From positions 1 through 60,514 of the IMG/VR virus record IMGVR_UViG_3300031951_000164: a stretch of 60,514 nucleotides of DNA; one strand, given 5' to 3'. This DNA comes from a virus. The notes under the pieces are model-generated. The model saw only the letters and a program-made list of their open reading frames with translations, made no database searches and was not told where the DNA came from. The position numbers were made by a program, and so were the translations under genes. The stretch's first letter is position 1, and the number at the start of each line of letters is the position of its first letter. Below are positions 9,702 to 59,645 of the stretch, one piece after another.

Positions 9702-10016
9702 TCAGCAGTTCCAACGGCGAAGCGACATGGCTTTTCTGGTTGGTCTTCCTTTTTCATCTTTCATCGGACCCTTGACTCCACTCATTCTGGCGCAGAACGA
9801 CTTACGACGTTTGGCTGCTTTGCTGCCAGCTTTGAGTTTAGAAGGCGGAGTTGTAACAGCCGTGCTCAACTTGGATCCTGGATTCTTACGGCGATATGCC
9901 ATAACGCCTTTTCTTGTAAGACCAGCTCCAGACTCAGTTGATCTTTTATGACCTGCAGAGTCTGCTCCACGCTCAAGAACAAGTTCTTCTTTTATGAATT
10001 CTTTGAATGAGATCAT
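9702..10016 (-). CDS. Basic internal-head protein candidate, 104 aa
   Basis: The N-terminus MISFKEFIKEE matches the capsid-targeting peptide pattern of T4 internal proteins (IPIII starts MKTYQEFIAEA). The rest is strongly basic, with YRRKNPGSKL, KAAKRRKSFCARMSGVKG and KGRPTRK, a conserved arrangement I recall from T4-like phages and typical of small DNA-contacting core proteins. I infer packaging into the prohead, possible cleavage by gp21 after IKE or LVLE near the start, and binding to packaged DNA. It is the last gene of the head block and lies after the 401-aa CTS protein. Confidence 0.65.
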   Translation of the reverse strand: MISFKEFIKEELVLERGADSAGHKRSTESGAGLTRKGVMAYRRKNPGSKLSTAVTTPPSKLKAGSKAAKRRKSFCARMSGVKGPMKDEKGRPTRKAMSLRRWNC

Positions 10017-16213: not shown

Positions 16214-16581
16214 CAATCGTCAGCCGAATGTCTCACTCTCGTTAGGAAATCACTATCAGAAGACCCTTCAGTATATTCCAAAACGTCAATTCCACCTTGT
16301 ATTTCGATGATGTCTTCTTGTTGAAGAATCTGAGCAAACATGGAATATCCAACAGGCTCCTCGTCTATTACCACATACAGAAAGAGGTCGTCTTCGCCCT
16401 CTATTTTGTATATTGTGTCTTCATCAACACTCAGTCCGCCAGGAAACTGTATTTCGTGATCCGTGAAGATCGAATGCAGTATAGTTTCAATGGCGTCGAC
16501 TGAGCTAAAGTGTCTGTGAGAAAGCTCATCCAATTTTTCGTTTATGATTTCTATTGTAGCATAATCTACTTCTTCGTTCAT
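16213..16581 (-). CDS. Acidic hypothetical protein, 122 aa
   Basis: A 122-residue strongly acidic protein (MNEEVDYATIEIINEKLDEL) that looks alpha/beta, with strands ETILHSIF, IYKIEGEDDLFLYVVIDEE and helices between them. It overlaps the long basic polyprotein gene upstream (ATGA) and the 130-aa gene downstream (TGATG), so it is co-translated with both. Its acidity, opposite to that of the surrounding basic proteins, could mean a chaperone or scaffold role, but this is only inference. Family not recognised. Confidence 0.6.
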   Translation of the reverse strand: MNEEVDYATIEIINEKLDELSHRHFSSVDAIETILHSIFTDHEIQFPGGLSVDEDTIYKIEGEDDLFLYVVIDEEPVGYSMFAQILQQEDIIEIQGGIDVLEYTEGSSDSDFLTRVRHSADD

Positions 16582-18770
16582 ATTCCCCTCACTCCGCCTC
16601 TATTGGCGTCTAAACTAATTACAGGATCAATTTCTATTTTAGCAGCACGGCTACCAGTTGCAGTTTTCCCGTTGGCTTGATTTGTTCCCTGCTTGTCGAC
16701 TGCTTTGCGAATCACTTCACGAATAATATTTCTTGTTTCGCTGACAGTCTTGGCTTTGGTATCAGGATTCATTTTGCTAACGAGCTTCTCAACGCCAGCT
16801 TTCGGTTGCTGTATGGGAGCAGCTTCCGAGAGGTTTCTATACTTCCACTTGCCGTCTTCATGATCGGCAATCGCAAGCGTCTTGCCTGTCTCATGGTGAA
16901 TCATATGAAGGGAAACTTTCTTGCCCGTCTTCTTGGCTATGTTCGCCGCATGTCTGCCCGCATCTTGCGCACCCTTCTCGCCCGCGCCCATACGATCACC
17001 AGCCTTGTAGTGCCGCCCATCTACATGGATCTGAGTGTGATAGCCTTGATAATCACGGCTCTTGCTTCTCTCTTCATGTTCTTTGGCTCTTGACATAGCC
17101 ACATGATGAGGAACACCCTGCGCTCTCAGGTCTTTGTATACATCCTCACCAGTTGCTTCTTCCAACTTCGCCTTCGACTTCTTCTTGGTCACAAGCAATC
17201 CAGCTTTGTTGCGTTTTGCATTTCCACCAGCCTTCTTTATTCTTGCGATAAGCTGTTTGGTTGCATCCCTACCAACAGATTCTTTAACTGGATGCACTCT
17301 CTTCGCAATCACTCTAGCGATTTGTCTGTCCTTTTCTTTTTCATCATCAGAGAGACCGCCATACGCACCAGTCAACTTAGAGCGTCTTTCTTTTTGCTCT
17401 GGGCTTTGGTTTGTGCTGGTTAAAGCGTGGTGAGACCAACCGCGAGACTTCCCACCATAATCAGCCGGAGATCCATGAATGGCTTTTGATATGGTTTCGA
17501 TGTGCTCAGGATCGTGTGGGTTTCCGCCAGCCTTTTTGATTGCTCTGGCAGCACGCAATCCAGCAACTGCGGAAGAGCGAGTTGCACCAGCACCAAAATT
17601 AGTCTTTGGATCTACAGAAGGATCATGTGGACCATATGATGGATTTGCTGCATGACTTGCTGCAGTTATTTTATATGCGAGACCTTTGGGATTTGAAGAT
17701 TTCATTTCATCCATCTGGTCGGATTCTTCATTCACAGAATGAATGAACGACAGGTCTTTATGAACTTTATATCCAGCGTTTCTATAATGCTTCTCTGCCG
17801 TCTCTATAGCCTTTTGTTGACTTGATGCGTTTACGTTGACTCTTACGTCTTTCTTATCACCACTCGCTACATCACGATGAGATATTGTCAAGCCAACCTT
17901 ATATCTTTTTCTACCGACAGCTTCTTCCTTCATCGTATCGCAATCGCACTGACCAGGAGTGTCTTTCTTGTACCTCTTGGTCAGCTTCGTGGTTCCCCAC
18001 TCTCTGTCCTTTGGTTCATTGCTTTCTTCTTTTACATGAATCATTCTTTTCTTCTTCCCCTTGGTGTGGTCAATTATGGAGAGATGTTTTCCAGACTTCA
18101 CCTCTCCGCTTGAAACTTCCCAATGACCATCCTTGATTTTTTGCATAACATGTTTCATGGAATGAGCTGGAAGACCGTAGTTCTCTTTTTCTTCCTTAAT
18201 TTCTTTAGCACTCCAATTGGTACTTCCAAGACCGCTTGAATTCATAAGTTCAGCTGCATGTTGAGAACTTTTAGCTTTTTTGATAATATTTGCAACAAGC
18301 CTTTCTCTTTCGGAATTGCTTCCGTTGTGCTTATATGCATGTTGCGCGGGGCTTATATTGACCCCAGCATGACTGGCAAAAACATGACCTTTGGGGGTTC
18401 GGTATATATGATGAACATTTCCTAAAGAGTCTTTTAATGTTATATGAAGTTTCTCAACTTCTTCCTTAACGTATGCGTGTACGGATATTTTGTCGGCGTC
18501 ATATCCCTTACTCTTAAGGCGTCTTCGATGTTCCCCTGCATGAGCAATTGCTTCTTCATATGAATCGTGTTTGGAAACATCACGCCCGTTGTTCAGAACT
18601 CGGTAATGTGAGACATCGTGTTTGGTTCTATGGGAAAGCGGAATTTCTCTTTCCTCATTGGCAGGAACACAATTCGGAACCTTTCTTCCATTCTTCATCT
18701 TCATGCCGACAGCTGTATAGCCTTTCCAGCATGCTTTCTTCAGACCACCAGTGGGTTCTTTGACTGCCAT
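16578..18770 (-). CDS. Modular, protease-site-rich head polyprotein, 730 aa
   Basis: A 730-residue, highly basic, His- and Gly-rich protein built of separable modules. The N-terminal module (GGLKKACWKGYTAVGMKMKN, about 8-36) is a small cysteine-containing unit I recall from other T4-like phages. Later modules are separated by acidic linkers that contain E-E or [IL]-x-E: VKEEVE (101), IKEEKE (191), KEEA (281), VNEESDQMDE (346-355), KLEEA (535), NLSEA (646). These fit cleavage by the gp21 prohead protease. Module 355-500 has a repeated Gly/His pattern and the segment 574-648 resembles a small alpha/beta domain. I infer an internal-head polyprotein processed during maturation. It lies next to the Dps-bearing polyprotein, and no enzyme domain is certain. 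Confidence 0.65.
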   Translation of the reverse strand: MAVKEPTGGLKKACWKGYTAVGMKMKNGRKVPNCVPANEEREIPLSHRTKHDVSHYRVLNNGRDVSKHDSYEEAIAHAGEHRRRLKSKGYDADKISVHAYVKEEVEKLHITLKDSLGNVHHIYRTPKGHVFASHAGVNISPAQHAYKHNGSNSERERLVANIIKKAKSSQHAAELMNSSGLGSTNWSAKEIKEEKENYGLPAHSMKHVMQKIKDGHWEVSSGEVKSGKHLSIIDHTKGKKKRMIHVKEESNEPKDREWGTTKLTKRYKKDTPGQCDCDTMKEEAVGRKRYKVGLTISHRDVASGDKKDVRVNVNASSQQKAIETAEKHYRNAGYKVHKDLSFIHSVNEESDQMDEMKSSNPKGLAYKITAASHAANPSYGPHDPSVDPKTNFGAGATRSSAVAGLRAARAIKKAGGNPHDPEHIETISKAIHGSPADYGGKSRGWSHHALTSTNQSPEQKERRSKLTGAYGGLSDDEKEKDRQIARVIAKRVHPVKESVGRDATKQLIARIKKAGGNAKRNKAGLLVTKKKSKAKLEEATGEDVYKDLRAQGVPHHVAMSRAKEHEERSKSRDYQGYHTQIHVDGRHYKAGDRMGAGEKGAQDAGRHAANIAKKTGKKVSLHMIHHETGKTLAIADHEDGKWKYRNLSEAAPIQQPKAGVEKLVSKMNPDTKAKTVSETRNIIREVIRKAVDKQGTNQANGKTATGSRAAKIEIDPVISLDANRGGVRGI

Positions 18771-18771
18771 C

Positions 18772-21024
18772 TTATGCTCCTTTTGACACCGACTTGATCA
18801 TCCAGCCCAGTTTCTTGTGAGCATCGATCTTGTCTTGGAGGAAGTTTGAGAGACCAATCTCACCAGCAGCCTCTGCTACTTTGTAGCCATTCGTCAGACC
18901 AGCAAGAATCTTGCTATTGTCAGCAAGCAGAGAACCGAACATCTCGGCTGGAGTTTGTACTGACGAATCGTCAATAGAAGTAGATCCCTTGAGTTCGGTC
19001 AGCGAACGCGGAGCATACTCGCCCAGAGCACGAATCTCTTCGGCGATTGGATCAATCGTATCGAACAGCTGCTCATAGACATCGCCAAAAAACTTGTGAT
19101 ACTCAGGGAAGTTGGCTCCTTCGACATTCCAGTGGAACGTGTGCGCCTTGAAGTACATATGGAACGCATCAGCAAGGATAGCCTTCATCGCAGCAGAAAG
19201 AGCTGGTGTTGCTTCTTCTGCCAGATAGCTTTCTTTCATCATCTTCGACTTCTTACGAAGAAGTTTGAAGTCATGAGCATCAATCTTGCCATTCTCGTTG
19301 GCATCAATTCTACGCTGCCTGCCGAGCAGACGCTCGGCGATATGGCTGGTTTCTTCTTCCATCTTATCAGACTTAGAGGGTATGCTTACGCCAGCCCATT
19401 TAGCTTGTCTAGCTCTTCTCTGTTCAATTCTTTCTTGGGCATCTTTAAATGCTTTGGCTAGTTTTGGGTCAGCACGAAGCATCCAGCCTGGTTTGTGGTT
19501 CCCTTTGCCCATATATGGGGCTTCGTCAATCTGCTCGACTTCTTCATTTGTTTTCTTTTTGCCAATCCTACTAGCACGCTCGGCTCTGAGCATTGCAAGC
19601 TGATCGTGCGTTACTCTATGAGGCATATTTGGGTTTTTCTGTTTAAATTCTTCCCAACCAGCTATCCTCTTTTCAATTTCAGCATTTGTCATAGATGCAA
19701 TATGTTTTGCAGCATCGTATTTTTTGCCGTAGTTGCCACCTTCATCAATCTGCTCGACTTCTTCTTTCTTTAACTTTTTATCCCAAGCCTTATCCGTCTT
19801 GATATTATATTCTTTTCCACCAGGACCAATATCTGCAATTTTATAACCTATAGGCTCATTTGTTTTGACTACAACTTTTTTCTTAGCTTCTTCTGGAAGG
19901 TTCGGTTTGGGTTGCTTATTCGCTAAGTTGCCCCGTATTCTTCCCTTCAGAGAAGTATTGGACGCTTTCGTTGTCTTGCCAGTCTTAGCAACAACCTGAG
20001 CTTTTTTTCTATTTTCTAATGAAGAATGATTGTATTCGCCGCCTGTGTCACCACGCTTATCAGACGTTGCTCTCATTCCACCAGTTGATCTAGGGCTACG
20101 GTCCCAGTCGTGGTCGGGGTCAGGTTTGGCAGCACTTGAACTTCTCCACTTGGCTTTCTCTGCAATCTGCTCGGCTTCTTCTGGAAGATGCGAACCATAT
20201 CCTCTGGAGTTCTTCAGATCTGCTATTCTAGCTCTTGCATCAGCTTTTCTGTCTCCAGTCTGCTTCGGACCAGTGTCTGCTTTTTGAATCTTTCTTCCAG
20301 CAGCAACGCGATCTGCTACTGCACGCTGAGAAAGTGGAGCGGCTCCTGGCTTATGTCCACCGCCAGCTTTAAATTGTAGTGACTTTGCTTTCATTCTGTT
20401 TACCATACCAACCATGCCACGCTCATCAATCTGCTGAAATTCTTCGTACATATATCTGTCTAATATATCCAAAGCATGTTTTGGAATCTTTTGTCCTTTA
20501 TGAGAATTTTTACCTTCGTCCGCACTAGCTCCAGCGGCACGGAGATCCATTCCCTTTTGCTTTGCCTGCTTAAGAGCCTCTTCTGCTTTGTCTGCGTGAT
20601 GCTTCGGTACCTCGATTTCACCAGCCTCCTCTCTCGACCCGCCATAATTTGCTTCGACGGTGCCATGCATGAATTCATGAAGATGCGGACGGGCATTTAT
20701 TTTCACATGCTCTTCTTGGGCTTCAAAAATATTGCGCCCTTCGTCAAGTTTTTCCCACTTGTCTGTATATACATGTTTTTCACCAGTCGCATTATGAGTG
20801 AGAACAGCCTCATGTCCTTCTGGGAATTTACCTGAATCCTCTAATTTGTTTATATGGGCAGCAGCTTCGGCTTTTGATGCAAAACTTCCTAGCTTTTTCT
20901 TTCTGTCGTCCTTCTCGGGATGAACTGCATGAAGAGTGTAGCTTTCGCTCAATGTTTGCTCCATCACCTTTCTCGCGGCTTCAGCAACTGCCTTGTTGAT
21001 TTTGTCGTTGAATGGATTGTTCAT
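18772..21024 (-). CDS. Head polyprotein ending in a Dps-type ferritin domain, 750 aa
   Basis: A 750-residue modular protein with eight or so [IL]-x-E sites that divide it: LSE 25-27, LDE 93-95, QIDE 198-201, QIAE 286-289, QIDE 425-428, QIDE 498-501, HIAE 561-564, YLAE 600-603. Most are preceded by EEVEQ or EEAEQ. The intermediate modules are basic and disordered-looking. Residues 574-585 (DANENGKIDAHD) form an EF-hand/dockerin-type calcium loop. From about 604 to the end is a Dps domain: HTFHWNVEG (His628, His631), His643, and DPIAEE (Asp658, Glu662) match the ferroxidase residues of Dps. Dps protects DNA from iron and peroxide. I infer cleavage by gp21 and retention of the Dps part with the genome. 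Confidence 0.78.
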   Translation of the reverse strand: MNNPFNDKINKAVAEAARKVMEQTLSESYTLHAVHPEKDDRKKKLGSFASKAEAAAHINKLEDSGKFPEGHEAVLTHNATGEKHVYTDKWEKLDEGRNIFEAQEEHVKINARPHLHEFMHGTVEANYGGSREEAGEIEVPKHHADKAEEALKQAKQKGMDLRAAGASADEGKNSHKGQKIPKHALDILDRYMYEEFQQIDERGMVGMVNRMKAKSLQFKAGGGHKPGAAPLSQRAVADRVAAGRKIQKADTGPKQTGDRKADARARIADLKNSRGYGSHLPEEAEQIAEKAKWRSSSAAKPDPDHDWDRSPRSTGGMRATSDKRGDTGGEYNHSSLENRKKAQVVAKTGKTTKASNTSLKGRIRGNLANKQPKPNLPEEAKKKVVVKTNEPIGYKIADIGPGGKEYNIKTDKAWDKKLKKEEVEQIDEGGNYGKKYDAAKHIASMTNAEIEKRIAGWEEFKQKNPNMPHRVTHDQLAMLRAERASRIGKKKTNEEVEQIDEAPYMGKGNHKPGWMLRADPKLAKAFKDAQERIEQRRARQAKWAGVSIPSKSDKMEEETSHIAERLLGRQRRIDANENGKIDAHDFKLLRKKSKMMKESYLAEEATPALSAAMKAILADAFHMYFKAHTFHWNVEGANFPEYHKFFGDVYEQLFDTIDPIAEEIRALGEYAPRSLTELKGSTSIDDSSVQTPAEMFGSLLADNSKILAGLTNGYKVAEAAGEIGLSNFLQDKIDAHKKLGWMIKSVSKGA

Positions 21025-22046
21025 TTAGATGTCTCCGTTATTTTTCTGAAGTTAGAGAAAGATTTCTTTTCGGCAACTGAGTATGCGGTGAGTCCAATCC
21101 CACCAGAAGGAACAGCACCTATTCTGGAGTCAAAGTATTTACCAGGATTCACGGCTGGCTTTTTGTGGACTTTTTTGCCCTTGCTTGTGTCTGCCTCGGC
21201 TTCTTTGGCTTCGGCGGCGACGACTCGCTCGGCTCTGTTGTCGGAAGACTTGGGGATTCCTCCTTCTCTCGGGTCGTTTTGGATCGCTCCTTTCTTAATG
21301 GCTCCTCTAGCGGCTCTGCCCAAAACAGCTTTTTCAGTAACTGTAGAATCTTCATTGCTTTCTCCGATGATTTCCTCAAAGAGTTGATTGATGTTTGTTG
21401 TGTCTATTTTGCCGCTCTCGACCAGCCATTTGATTGATGATGGATTGGTTGGAGCTGATGAGATGAAATTGGAAACTCCCTCAAAGAGTTCCTCAGTCCA
21501 GCCGATGATTTCCTTTCTGACCTTTTCATTCGCACGCTTGAAGTCGCGTGAGTTATCGAACAGGAAAAAGCTAGAGAAATCCTCAGAGAACGTTTTCATG
21601 TTCTTGATTGCTGAATTATACTTCATCAGTCTGGTTTGCTCAGAGAAGGTTTTGGCTCCGCTAGAAATGCGTACATCATTCCTTCTCTTTGACTCAGAGT
21701 TTTCCGTATAGACGAACACCATGGAAGTATCATATCCCATGTGCTCAAGAACTGTACGGCAAACGTTGATTTTGTTGTAGTCGTCTGCATTGCCATTGAT
21801 GAAGATGGAACGAAATGTGTCCAGTTCTCTCAATGAAGATTTTTCGACGATTGTCTTGTGTAATTTGTCGAGGCTAATCTCAGCCATTCCTGACTCTTGT
21901 AGCCCCGACTTGATAAGAATGTCTTTTCCACTGCCAGGTCCTCCCACAAGAAAGAGAGCCTTGAAGTGTTTCTGCGTGGACTCTAAAGACAATGCGCTTT
22001 TTGGCGCATGATTGATTTGTTTGAGCTGTCGTTCTTTTGTTTTCAT
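21021..22046 (-). CDS. P-loop kinase-like protein of the head block
   Basis: A start at the ATG at 22046 (MKTKERQLKQINH) is chosen because GGGA lies just upstream; the frame also opens at a GTG at 22058. The 341-residue protein has a P-loop, FLVGGPGSGKD (residues 32-42), and then a helical kinase-like region with VFVYTENSESKRRND, like zeta-toxin or polynucleotide-kinase relatives. The C-terminal third is basic and ends with GKYFDSRIGAVPSGGIGLTAY, a tail I recall as conserved in T4-like phages. Expressed behind a TATAAATA late promoter, it is therefore a late gene, possibly a packaged kinase. The phosphate acceptor is unknown. Confidence 0.7.
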   Translation of the reverse strand: MKTKERQLKQINHAPKSALSLESTQKHFKALFLVGGPGSGKDILIKSGLQESGMAEISLDKLHKTIVEKSSLRELDTFRSIFINGNADDYNKINVCRTVLEHMGYDTSMVFVYTENSESKRRNDVRISSGAKTFSEQTRLMKYNSAIKNMKTFSEDFSSFFLFDNSRDFKRANEKVRKEIIGWTEELFEGVSNFISSAPTNPSSIKWLVESGKIDTTNINQLFEEIIGESNEDSTVTEKAVLGRAARGAIKKGAIQNDPREGGIPKSSDNRAERVVAAEAKEAEADTSKGKKVHKKPAVNPGKYFDSRIGAVPSGGIGLTAYSVAEKKSFSNFRKITETSK

Positions 22047-22076
22047 ATATTCCCACACTTTGGGGTTATTTTGGAG

Positions 22077-22084
22077 TATTTATA
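22077..22084 (-). promoter_or_regulatory. Late promoter TATAAATA
   Basis: Perfect T4-type late promoter on the minus strand, about 30 bases before the start of the P-loop gene, so it drives that gene and the two polyproteins. Late promoters of this kind are read by the gp55 sigma factor with gp33 and the gp45 clamp. Confidence 0.8.
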
Positions 22085-54170: not shown

Positions 54171-55550
54171 TCACTTCAGGTTCGTGATCATGAACTTGCG
54201 ATAGTAGATATTGCTGTTGTTATTCAGAGCACCAGCATCGACGCTCAGACCACCAGCAAACGGGTTGGCAACCATTCCATAACGAGTCTTGAAGCCGATC
54301 TTCGGCTGGAAGGTGTTAGGATCGATAGCGCGAACCATTTGGAGCGGGACGTAAGGGCAGTAGAACAGACCCGAGTCATACGCGATTGAACCCTTGTATC
54401 CAACTACAACGAAATCGTTAGAAATCGCAGAAGTAGCTGAAGTCAGCGAGTAAGGATCGGCGTATACTTTTACGCGACCGAAGAGCGTACCGCAGTATGT
54501 GCTGCCAGTATCGTCAACAGTCATTCCGTCAGTCTTACCAACCAGACCGCCAGCATAGTCCAGAAGACCGGACATAGCCAGAGCCGAAGCGACGTCAGTC
54601 GAGCAGATGATTATGTTGCCCTTGCCACGACGAGTGTCTTTGGCAATCTTGTTGGCTTCACGCTCGATTTGATAGATCAGACCCTTGTACTTCTCAACCT
54701 GCCAGCGACCATCAGTGTCACCGCCAGAAGTTGCAAGGTTGAACACGCCAAGCGTGCCAGCAGTTCTTGCGCCGATCACAGCCGTAGCGTAGATCGTACG
54801 AATAACTTCGCGGTTGATTTCAGCAAGGATTTCCGTCGAAAGGATATTCGACAGTTCCGTCTCAGCATCAAGACCATGAACAGCCTTGAGGTCTTGAGCC
54901 AGTTCCATCGTGTACTCAGCTTTCAGAGCGCGAGTCTTGGCAGTTACAGTGACCTTCTCGATCGAGAAGCCCATAGCGCCCATAGCGGGTGAGCCTGTGC
55001 CGCCAAGATCTTCACCAACTGCCGTAGCAAAACCAACGCCGATATCGGCAAGACCGAAAGCAGCAGAGATTGAAGTGTTAGCAGGGTTTACGGTGTTAGC
55101 CTGAGTTTCAGCTTGACCAGCCTTAAGACCGAACGGAGTGTGCGTGCCAGTTCCAGCGAAAGCTGTGTTAGCTTCGTTGTACAGAGCTTCGCCGAGCTGC
55201 GTCGTAGCATTCGCATACTTCGAACGCATTGCGAAGATCAGACCTGTCGGTCCAGTCATCGGCTGAACGCCGCAGACATCATAAGCCATCAGGTTGGGCA
55301 TTGAACGACGAACGAGTGAGATAAGGATCGGGTCGAAACCAGCAGTGGTTTGACCTGAAGAACCCGTGTAGCCAGTGATGTTGGCTGGTGAGGTTTCGTT
55401 CAGGATTGAGCCTTCCTTCATCAGCGCCTGCTCTTGGTTCTCAAGAATGATAGCTGTTACGGAACGCTTGTAGGGGTCAGTGACAGCGCCAAGATCCCCG
55501 TGGTCGAGGACTGGTGCCCACTTCTTTTCTAAATTTTCAGAAAGGTACAT
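54171..55550 (-). CDS. 23: Major capsid protein, gp23
   Basis: A 459-residue precursor of the main head subunit. It begins MYLSENLEKKWAPVLDHGDL, a typical gp23 start; the region GVQPMTGPTGLIFAMRSKYA is the conserved core. A likely gp21 cleavage site is ILNE at residues 49-52, giving a mature protein of about 407 residues. The C-terminus matches the family. Strong terminator downstream (54101) and AGGAG site upstream fit its high expression. It lies after gp22 scaffold, as in T4. Confidence 0.95.
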   Translation of the reverse strand: MYLSENLEKKWAPVLDHGDLGAVTDPYKRSVTAIILENQEQALMKEGSILNETSPANITGYTGSSGQTTAGFDPILISLVRRSMPNLMAYDVCGVQPMTGPTGLIFAMRSKYANATTQLGEALYNEANTAFAGTGTHTPFGLKAGQAETQANTVNPANTSISAAFGLADIGVGFATAVGEDLGGTGSPAMGAMGFSIEKVTVTAKTRALKAEYTMELAQDLKAVHGLDAETELSNILSTEILAEINREVIRTIYATAVIGARTAGTLGVFNLATSGGDTDGRWQVEKYKGLIYQIEREANKIAKDTRRGKGNIIICSTDVASALAMSGLLDYAGGLVGKTDGMTVDDTGSTYCGTLFGRVKVYADPYSLTSATSAISNDFVVVGYKGSIAYDSGLFYCPYVPLQMVRAIDPNTFQPKIGFKTRYGMVANPFAGGLSVDAGALNNNSNIYYRKFMITNLK

Positions 55551-56734: not shown

Positions 56735-57385
56735 TCAAAGTTTCTTTAAAAACTTTTCGAATAGGCGTAATTGAGTTGTTTCCAAATCTTTCTTAGATGT
56801 TTTAACCAACTCTTTTCTCATATCGGCAATTTCTGCTTCACGAATTACACCATTATCAAAGACCCATTCTTTGTTCTCATATACTGCTTGAACCCAAGCA
56901 TCATGAGCAGAAGGATCCGCCACTATATCTGCCGCTGTAGCAAGATGATAGTCGTCCTGGACGATATTTCTCCCTTCCTTGGTAGGAACGAGAGACCCCA
57001 GACCTCTAGACGAGACGCCGAGCGACGCGCCTTCGTCCATAAAATTCTTTACGATTCTTCCGTATGGCGTATCCATTACCTTGGCTTTGCCTACGAAATC
57101 AGTGCCTTCTCTATGTAGGTCAGTGATCATATGAGAAACGCGATCAAGATTTATTGATGGCGTGTCCGGATGACCCAACTCGCCAAATGCACGCTTGGTG
57201 TTAATGTAATCATTCGTGTATCTCTGAACTTCTCGTTCCATTATGGACATAGGATACATACGCTGATTGCGATTAAATTTTTCTGTCTGCAGGAATATTC
57301 CCTGAATGTAGTAGTTCTTGCTGCCGTTTTCGGAAGCTTCTACCAGATACTTTACAGACTCGTTTACTTCTGATATTAGTTTCAT
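56735..57385 (-). CDS. 21: Prohead maturation protease, gp21
   Basis: A 216-residue serine protease of the T4 gp21 family (U9/S80). The catalytic His is in GELGHP (His72) and the Ser in VSSRG (Ser125 or 126). IQGIFLQTEKFNRNQRMYP is the conserved entry strand. It cleaves head proteins after [IL]-x-E, including gp23, gp22, gp67, gp68 and the internal proteins. It is the key enzyme for the polyprotein hypothesis. Its own start MKLISEVNES has an I-S-E. Confidence 0.93.
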   Translation of the reverse strand: MKLISEVNESVKYLVEASENGSKNYYIQGIFLQTEKFNRNQRMYPMSIMEREVQRYTNDYINTKRAFGELGHPDTPSINLDRVSHMITDLHREGTDFVGKAKVMDTPYGRIVKNFMDEGASLGVSSRGLGSLVPTKEGRNIVQDDYHLATAADIVADPSAHDAWVQAVYENKEWVFDNGVIREAEIADMRKELVKTSKKDLETTQLRLFEKFLKKL

Positions 57386-58613: not shown

Positions 58614-59645
58614 TCAGTCATCATTCGTTACGACAGGTTCGCGACTTCTTTTCGCTTCAGCCTTTCTTCTTTTTGCAGATGACATTGACCCCAGATCTCT
58701 TTGTATGAATTTCTTTTGGCTCCTTTTAGCTTTACCAATTTGAATTCTACCAGCTTGATCTTCGTATTCTCTTCCAGAATATTCATGCCCTTTATCATAA
58801 GCTCTATCTGCTTTCGCATTTGCTTTGTCTATGGCACGCTGCATAAGTTTATTGCTAAGTTCAGCAATCTGCTCGACTTCTTCTGGAAGATGTTCAAGAT
58901 TACTATGATGAACGGTGGTTGAATTACCAAAATTGTCCGCACCTTTGTGCTTGGGTGCGAACTTCCACTTTCCGCTCACATACTTTCCTGGCTTGCCCAG
59001 TCGCACGCTTACCTGTCCAGTTTTCCATACATCACTTACTTTTCCTTCATGTCCGTGTGCTGGTGTTCCAGGCAAATTAACTCTCACTCGGTCTCCTACT
59101 TTAAACTTTGGTTTCTTCGCCTCAGTCATCTGCTCGACTTCTTCATCATACACTCCGAACTTTTTAGAACCGAGCTCTTTGTTACTAATTGATGTTCCGC
59201 GAGTAACCTTTGTATTTCTTTGTGATGATGTTAATCCAGCTGCATTTCTTCTAACTTTACCACTAGCTGCACCTATTTTCGCGCCTTTATTATACTTTCT
59301 ATTTGCAAGTACATCTTTAGCCAATTTATCGCGTTCATCTTGATCGGCTGGTCTCCGCATCACAGAATCTCTTTCTCTTCCAATCCAAGCTCTAACAGCC
59401 TCATTAGTAAATTCCACTTCTTCAGCCAGAGCCTCAAGCTCTTCTTCCGACAGCGAGTCGAGATATTCATCAAGCTCTTCGTCTGACGTTTCTTCTTCGA
59501 GCTGATAATCGTCGCCGAACATCGACTGAGCCACAGCAATCTTCTGCTGCTCAATTTCGTCAGCAACGGCTGATTGAATTCTCTCAAGAAACGCTTCTCT
59601 GAAAGAAGCGGCGTCTTTTTCTTGTGCAAATTTAGTGAATGACAT
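58614..59645 (-). CDS. 67: gp67-like prohead core polyprotein with SH3/KOW module
   Basis: A 343-residue protein. Residues 1-80 start MSFTKFAQEKDAASFREAF and contain an IEQQKIAVAQSMFG helix followed by an acidic block (EEETSDEELDEYLDSLSEEE), which matches the layout of T4 gp67, a core protein of 80 residues. After that come basic segments separated by EEVEQMTE (168-175) and EEVEQIAE (255-262). Between them, residues 179-235 (FKVGDRVRVNLPGTPAHG, GKVSDVWKTGQVSVRLG) form an SH3/KOW-like barrel. It ends in a basic tail. I infer release of separate pieces by gp21. Position before gene 20 is that of gp67. Confidence 0.78.
   Translation of the reverse strand: MSFTKFAQEKDAASFREAFLERIQSAVADEIEQQKIAVAQSMFGDDYQLEEETSDEELDEYLDSLSEEELEALAEEVEFTNEAVRAWIGRERDSVMRRPADQDERDKLAKDVLANRKYNKGAKIGAASGKVRRNAAGLTSSQRNTKVTRGTSISNKELGSKKFGVYDEEVEQMTEAKKPKFKVGDRVRVNLPGTPAHGHEGKVSDVWKTGQVSVRLGKPGKYVSGKWKFAPKHKGADNFGNSTTVHHSNLEHLPEEVEQIAELSNKLMQRAIDKANAKADRAYDKGHEYSGREYEDQAGRIQIGKAKRSQKKFIQRDLGSMSSAKRRKAEAKRSREPVVTNDD

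Follow-up and report, generated by a model that had tools for sequence, protein, structure and literature searches.

A Dps-type ferritin domain at the C-terminus of a modular, probably head-targeted protein of a T4-like phage

Background

Phage Dps genes have so far been read as coding for stress proteins of the infected cell. In a viral DNA stretch of 60,514 nt (IMG/VR record IMGVR_UViG_3300031951_000164; "the window" below), a Dps pattern terminates a protein of 750 aa, hereafter P0001, and a sequence-only reading regarded it as the last piece of a head polyprotein, freed inside the capsid by the prohead protease gp21. This raises the question of whether the C-terminal domain is a genuine Dps and, if so, how a ferritin cage would be brought into a phage head and what it would do there. 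CTS-directed cargo, processing by gp21, phage Dps proteins and ferritin cargo in encapsulins are all known; no paper in the literature that we searched describes a head polyprotein with a Dps module, and database entries hold such fusions under automatic names. The features discussed below are collected in Table 1.

Table 1. Features of P0001 and of its surroundings in the window
Feature	Position	Strand	Evidence
P0001, modular protein, 750 aa: N-terminal tag, small domains, [IL]-x-E-bearing linkers, C-terminal Dps	18772..21024	-	ORF, ATG start
N-terminal tag, residues 1-27 (FNDKINKAVAEAARKVM...LSE)	20944..21024	-	tag HMM
Small α/β domain, residues 28-88, without family match (Pfam, PHROG)	20761..20943	-	AF2 pLDDT 83-89
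EEVEQIDE module start, residues 421-428	19741..19764	-	translation, motif comparison
EEVEQIDE module start, residues 494-501	19522..19545	-	translation, motif comparison
EF-hand/dockerin-like module IDANENGKIDAHDFKLL, residues 573-589	19258..19308	-	motif comparison
Putative gp21 cleavage site L601-A602-E603 / E604, at Dps start	19213..19224	-	junction column alignment
Dps domain, residues 604-750, ferroxidase ligands H631, H643, D658, E662	18775..19215	-	Pfam, PHROG, PDB, alignment, AlphaFold, Foldseek
Downstream modular protein, 730 aa, phrog_9737 motif CWKGYTAVGMKMKNGRKVPNCVP	16578..18770	-	PHROG
P-loop kinase-like gene (GGPGSGKD), 4-nt overlap with Dps gene start	21021..22058	-	motif, ORF
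T4-type late promoter TATAAATA (predicted), upstream of kinase-Dps operon	22077..22084	-	exact word match
gp23 major capsid protein; GSILNE/T aligns with T4 cut site GSFLTE/A	54171..55550	-	PHROG, alignment
gp21-type prohead protease	56735..57385	-	phrog_207, 3.5e-76
343-aa protein between portal and gp21, EEVEQ-type modules	58614..59645	-	PHROG, sequence comparison

Results and discussion

The C-terminus of P0001 is a Dps domain

The C-terminal part of P0001 is a true Dps domain. The Pfam family Ferritin (PF00210) covers residues 611-745 with an E-value of 7.5e-20 and a score of 71.7 bits, above the gathering cut-off of 24.5 bits, phrog_3636 matches the Dps region at 6e-29, and the top sequence match in PDB is the Dps of P. 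aeruginosa (8ff9, 7.1e-17). The AlphaFold model of the module, built with 50 phage sequences, has a mean pLDDT of 96.9 and exhibits four helices and a short BC helix (4-30, 36-63, 72-78, 89-116 and 120-144 in module numbering), with no E helix; its top Foldseek matches in PDB are Dps subunits (TM 0.90 for the Dps of Pseudomonas). The sequence-only reading, which had recognized the Dps pattern at about residues 604-750 and proposed an HMM search and a structure prediction as its tests, is borne out by both, as well as by the PHROG, PDB and Foldseek comparisons, and the four ferroxidase ligands, invariant in the alignment of 50 phage Dps, are exactly those that it had named.

Bacterial Dps proteins (PA0962, MrgA, HP-NAP) share the fold (TM ~0.9) and the four ferroxidase ligands with this module, which differs from them in being fused to a phage head polyprotein, in having Gly at position 647, the usual fifth (secondary) acidic position (with Asp at 648), and in the absence of a lysine tail: no basic or lysine tail was found at either end of the module. 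With its acidic character (pI 5.1, net charge -7) and no such tail, the module is likelier to remove iron and peroxide than to bind DNA, and the earlier suggestion that the Dps module itself binds the packaged genome is disfavoured. Several fragments of the N-terminal arm, on the other hand, are strongly basic (pI 9-11), so that the arms are the more probable source of any contact with DNA.

The N-terminal part and its portable tag

The N-terminal 603 aa gave only weak matches in isolated phage records. A classical CTS (F-x-x-[FYL]-[LI]-x-E) was sought at the N-terminus of P0001 and is absent, and a different tag is found in its place. We also considered whether this tag corresponds to the N-terminus of gp22; the likeness is suggestive only, gp22 ranking second among the 69 genes of the window. 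Among the modules that follow, the EF-hand/dockerin-like one is very widespread in T4-like modular proteins, with at least 599 matching stretches. In the AF2 model of full-length P0001 the Dps and the N-terminal α/β domain are confident and the linkers are low; low pLDDT at the [IL]-x-E sites was dropped as evidence, because this is a poor model made from six sequences.

The closest relative, a protein of 412 aa in locus L003, shares tag (86% over 22 aa) and Dps (86%) with P0001 but not the middle part, and on this basis a chance fusion or an assembly artefact was rejected. Short Dps proteins bearing the same kind of tag are encoded in L004-L007 and L166, and in L005, L006, L007 and L166 the gene after the tagged Dps codes for a separate modular protein that itself begins with this tag. 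The tag HMM also found independent matches, in loci left out of the building of the profile (L105, L147, L148, L151), at the first or likely start of modular proteins; a tag scan with a 26-aa query, too short for an E-value filter, yielded two confirmed loci. Its presence at residue 1 both of short Dps and of separate modular proteins implies that the tag is portable, and P0001 looks, from these comparisons, like a protein in which modules were placed between the tag and the Dps.

The tagged Dps group with that of the window in a single clade (92/89, in a run where the duplicate copy L001 carried no label), and for each of them the kinase motif is present in the gene immediately upstream. A search of bacterial and archaeal genomes with the C-terminal pattern of the tagged subclade found no relative, and isolated phage records matched in the Dps region only, with annotations, where a length was given, of short stand-alone proteins. 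The majority of phage Dps stand alone and have no tag. In one widespread untagged T4-like clade, the dps gene lies between those of the small (phrog_445) and large (phrog_2) terminase subunits (L061:7586-10058, L021:7606-10082), a position that may be another link between Dps and packaging.

The junction between arm and Dps

According to the sequence-only reading, the Dps is immediately preceded by LAE and, further upstream, by seven more [IL]-x-E sites. The LAE (601-603), followed directly by E604, is indeed there, while the number proved too low: residues 1-603 contain 12 strict sites, LAE included, against 5.4 expected from composition shuffles (p 0.004). As proof of cleavage at multiple sites this count is weak, since L003 (2 sites vs 1.8 expected) and other relatives show no excess and 9/60 control proteins reach p<0.05.

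Much better evidence, in our view, is the fixed position of the junction motif. When N-terminally extended Dps are compared with the invariant HWN motif as the anchor, [ILVM]-x-E ends at one identical column before the Dps in 6/9 of them, in strict form in four (LAE, LME, LKE, LKE) and relaxed in two (MQE, VTE), although the sequences upstream differ; it is missing from L005, L166 and L294. Free-standing phage Dps begin, in 104 of 138 cases, three residues past this column, so that cutting at the motif would yield a Dps of native length.

In T4, gp21 cuts by the L/I-x-E rule (PMC9026906). The gp23 of the window carries GSILNE/T at the position of the T4 cut site, and gp21 of this phage therefore probably has, by homology, the same L/I-x-E specificity.

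Genomic setting

The window covers part of the genome of a T4-like phage and, besides replication genes, codes for the portal, gp21, gp22 and gp23 as well as for a small head-scaffolding (core) protein. The dps gene had been placed in an internal-head block near CTS-bearing proteins, which holds as far as the neighbours are concerned, classical CTS-like N-termini being found in four genes of the window vs 0.17 expected; however, gp20-gp23 lie ~33 kb away, so the locus is better described as a CTS/internal-protein cluster than as the capsid operon. The phrog_9737 profile that matches the downstream modular protein additionally matches the C-terminal part of a Dps fusion in L313.

To judge from word matches, the kinase-Dps operon is under the control of a T4-type late promoter. 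Besides this copy, TATAAATA occurs only twice in the window, before gp22 and before the tail tube gene. In all loci fetched by that stage of the analysis it was counted 257 times in coding-strand orientation against 12 in the opposite one, the strongest strand bias among 56 words of equal composition, and in L008, L009 and L160 it stands directly upstream of units comprising a CTS, a nucleotidyltransferase and dps.

Dps in head polyproteins of other phages

A scan with the Dps-signature pattern provided 119 loci for analysis, eight of which have extensions of >40 aa. In the T4-like loci L363 and L403 the order is portal, a small gene, a 440-aa protein, two small genes, gp21, gp22 and gp23, and residues 107-241 of the 440-aa protein are a Dps. 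The arrangement, with Dps inside the protein between portal and gp21, is kept in L430, L431 and L433-L436, and an EEAEQIDE module, of a type found in P0001, is present in the core protein of L436 as well. In L438-L443 the same core protein, always just upstream of gp21, has an acidic DEDEEED linker in place of the Dps, and the two forms thus make, at the level of sequence, a natural with/without pair. In the window, the 343-aa protein occupies the core-protein slot that holds Dps in L403, L430, L431 and L433-L436; its KVGDRV...GHEGKV segment bears a weak resemblance (E 0.022) to a segment in L003.

Dps is also joined to proteins of other head systems: to a head maturation protease (phrog_9427, 8e-63) in L356:791-3979, to a Peptidase_S78 protease in L315, where the sequence stops at the contig end, and to a portal/protease-type protein in L321. 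In BFVD, a library of viral structures, Dps folds occur within entries named prohead protease. It would appear from this that head polyproteins acquired a Dps on several occasions, and the arrangement that had been thought unusual in the window is, as far as these loci can tell, uncommon yet recurrent in several unrelated phages.

A model for P0001 and its alternatives

We consider it likely that P0001 delivers Dps as a cargo by way of the scaffold core and that gp21 sets this cargo free. Expressed late and associated with the scaffold, it would be brought into the prohead core by its N-terminal tag and core-type modules; during maturation gp21 of the same phage would cut its linkers after [IL]-x-E, chiefly after LAE-603, and free the Dps subunit (604-750) inside the shell. 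The subunits would assemble into a 12-mer ferritin cage; remaining beside the packaged genome, the cage would limit hydroxyl-radical damage to virion DNA by clearing Fe(II) and peroxide. Cleavage, capsid location, 12-mer assembly and DNA protection are what we infer for P0001; head targeting and release by gp21 are favoured by the late promoter, the portable tag, the fixed-column motif and the Dps-bearing portal-gp21 protein of relatives, which together lend them strong, if indirect, support. A precedent for Dps in virions is provided by two podophages, Privateer (PMC7881722) and SU10 (PMC4281155), whose purified particles contain free-standing Dps detected by mass spectrometry.

These same observations bear on the view, put forward in the literature for phage Dps (PMC6669764, PMC8008677), that the protein acts inside the cell. 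P0001 would then protect the DNA of the host and the replicating DNA of the phage, its N-terminal part being incidental or used otherwise, and the prevalence of free-standing forms among phage Dps fits with it. We nevertheless find it unlikely for this locus, given the late promoter, the tag, the CTS-rich neighbourhood, the Dps within the portal-gp21 protein of relatives and the podophage virions (PMC7881722, PMC4281155). Another reading would make the Dps 12-mer mainly an oligomerisation hub, whose twelve basic, partly disordered arms organise the prohead core, with iron chemistry secondary or lost after maturation. The contrast of basic arms and acidic Dps agrees with it, as do the core-type modules common to P0001 and the portal-gp21 slot and the ability of an acidic linker to replace Dps in that slot; however, a pure hub would not need the four main ferroxidase ligands, which do not vary among 50 phage Dps, and we regard it as similarly improbable. 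Least credible, and in our opinion very improbable, is that the freed Dps, like some head proteins of T4, is injected together with the DNA and disarms oxidative or iron-based responses of the host: from general knowledge, a folded Dps cage of ~9 nm should not fit a T4-type tail tube, so that monomers would be needed. It can draw on the CTS-bearing enzymes among the neighbours of P0001 and on T4 internal proteins such as IPI, which act in the host after infection (PMC9026906).

Relation to known systems

Cargo loading of P0001 through the core would most closely resemble that of the T4 internal proteins IPI-III and Alt (PMC9026906, PMC3012670), in which an N-terminal targeting extension is likewise placed on a passenger and the cargo remains with the genome. 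These are processed by gp21, as predicted for P0001 at [IL]-x-E; in contrast to them, P0001 has a ferritin-type cage as the passenger, an extension of up to 600 aa made of small domains, and a non-classical tag. The free-standing Dps of phages (podophages Privateer and SU10, Lactobacillus myophages, cyanophage S-SRM01) have the same domain as P0001, but are encoded by stand-alone genes without tag, polyprotein or cleavage site at a junction. Encapsulins with encapsulated ferritin-like proteins (PMC5012862, PMC11202242) combine an HK97-fold shell, a ferritin-type cargo and a short targeting sequence, and we propose them as a parallel; the setting of P0001 differs in being a viral head with DNA and a gp23 shell, with N-terminal targeting and proposed proteolytic release, which makes it an analogue and not a member of that group.

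The interest of the Dps fusion lies in its recurrence across unrelated head systems and in the natural with/without pairs. Dps occurs in prohead-core proteins, where it can be swapped for a linker, and is fused to prohead proteases that are unrelated, which suggests that it functions in the head and turns the protection of virion DNA against extracellular iron and peroxide into a testable claim. The architecture of P0001 would represent a natural long-peptide route for loading a cage into T4-like heads, and Dps in the head a viral parallel to ferritin-bearing encapsulins. More tentatively, tailed-phage heads may repeatedly have made ferritin-bearing compartments, in which Dps cages brought in by scaffold or protease polyproteins of unrelated maturation systems oxidise or store iron around the genome; this possible but doubtful scenario would make such heads the viral equivalent of ferritin-loaded encapsulins and might show a way in which encapsulin cargo loading originated.

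Further observations on the window and related loci

Nucleotidyltransferase-type enzymes with CTS-like N-termini (e.g. MDFKQFITEA...FGRFNPPTVGH) are encoded in L008:6096-8030, L105, L131, L145, L160, L170 and L171, which suggests that many enzymes may be packaged in T4-like heads. At 9702-10016 of the window, a stand-alone CTS-like N-terminus is combined with DUF6321, a domain that forms, in PHROG profiles, the C-terminal end of proteins 336 to 928 positions long, in parallel to the case of Dps. Finally, an interruption at LAGC breaks the ORF of the gp41 helicase in L003:1230-3793 and L005:142-1987, and the ORF that comes next is intein-like, possibly a split or inserted intein.
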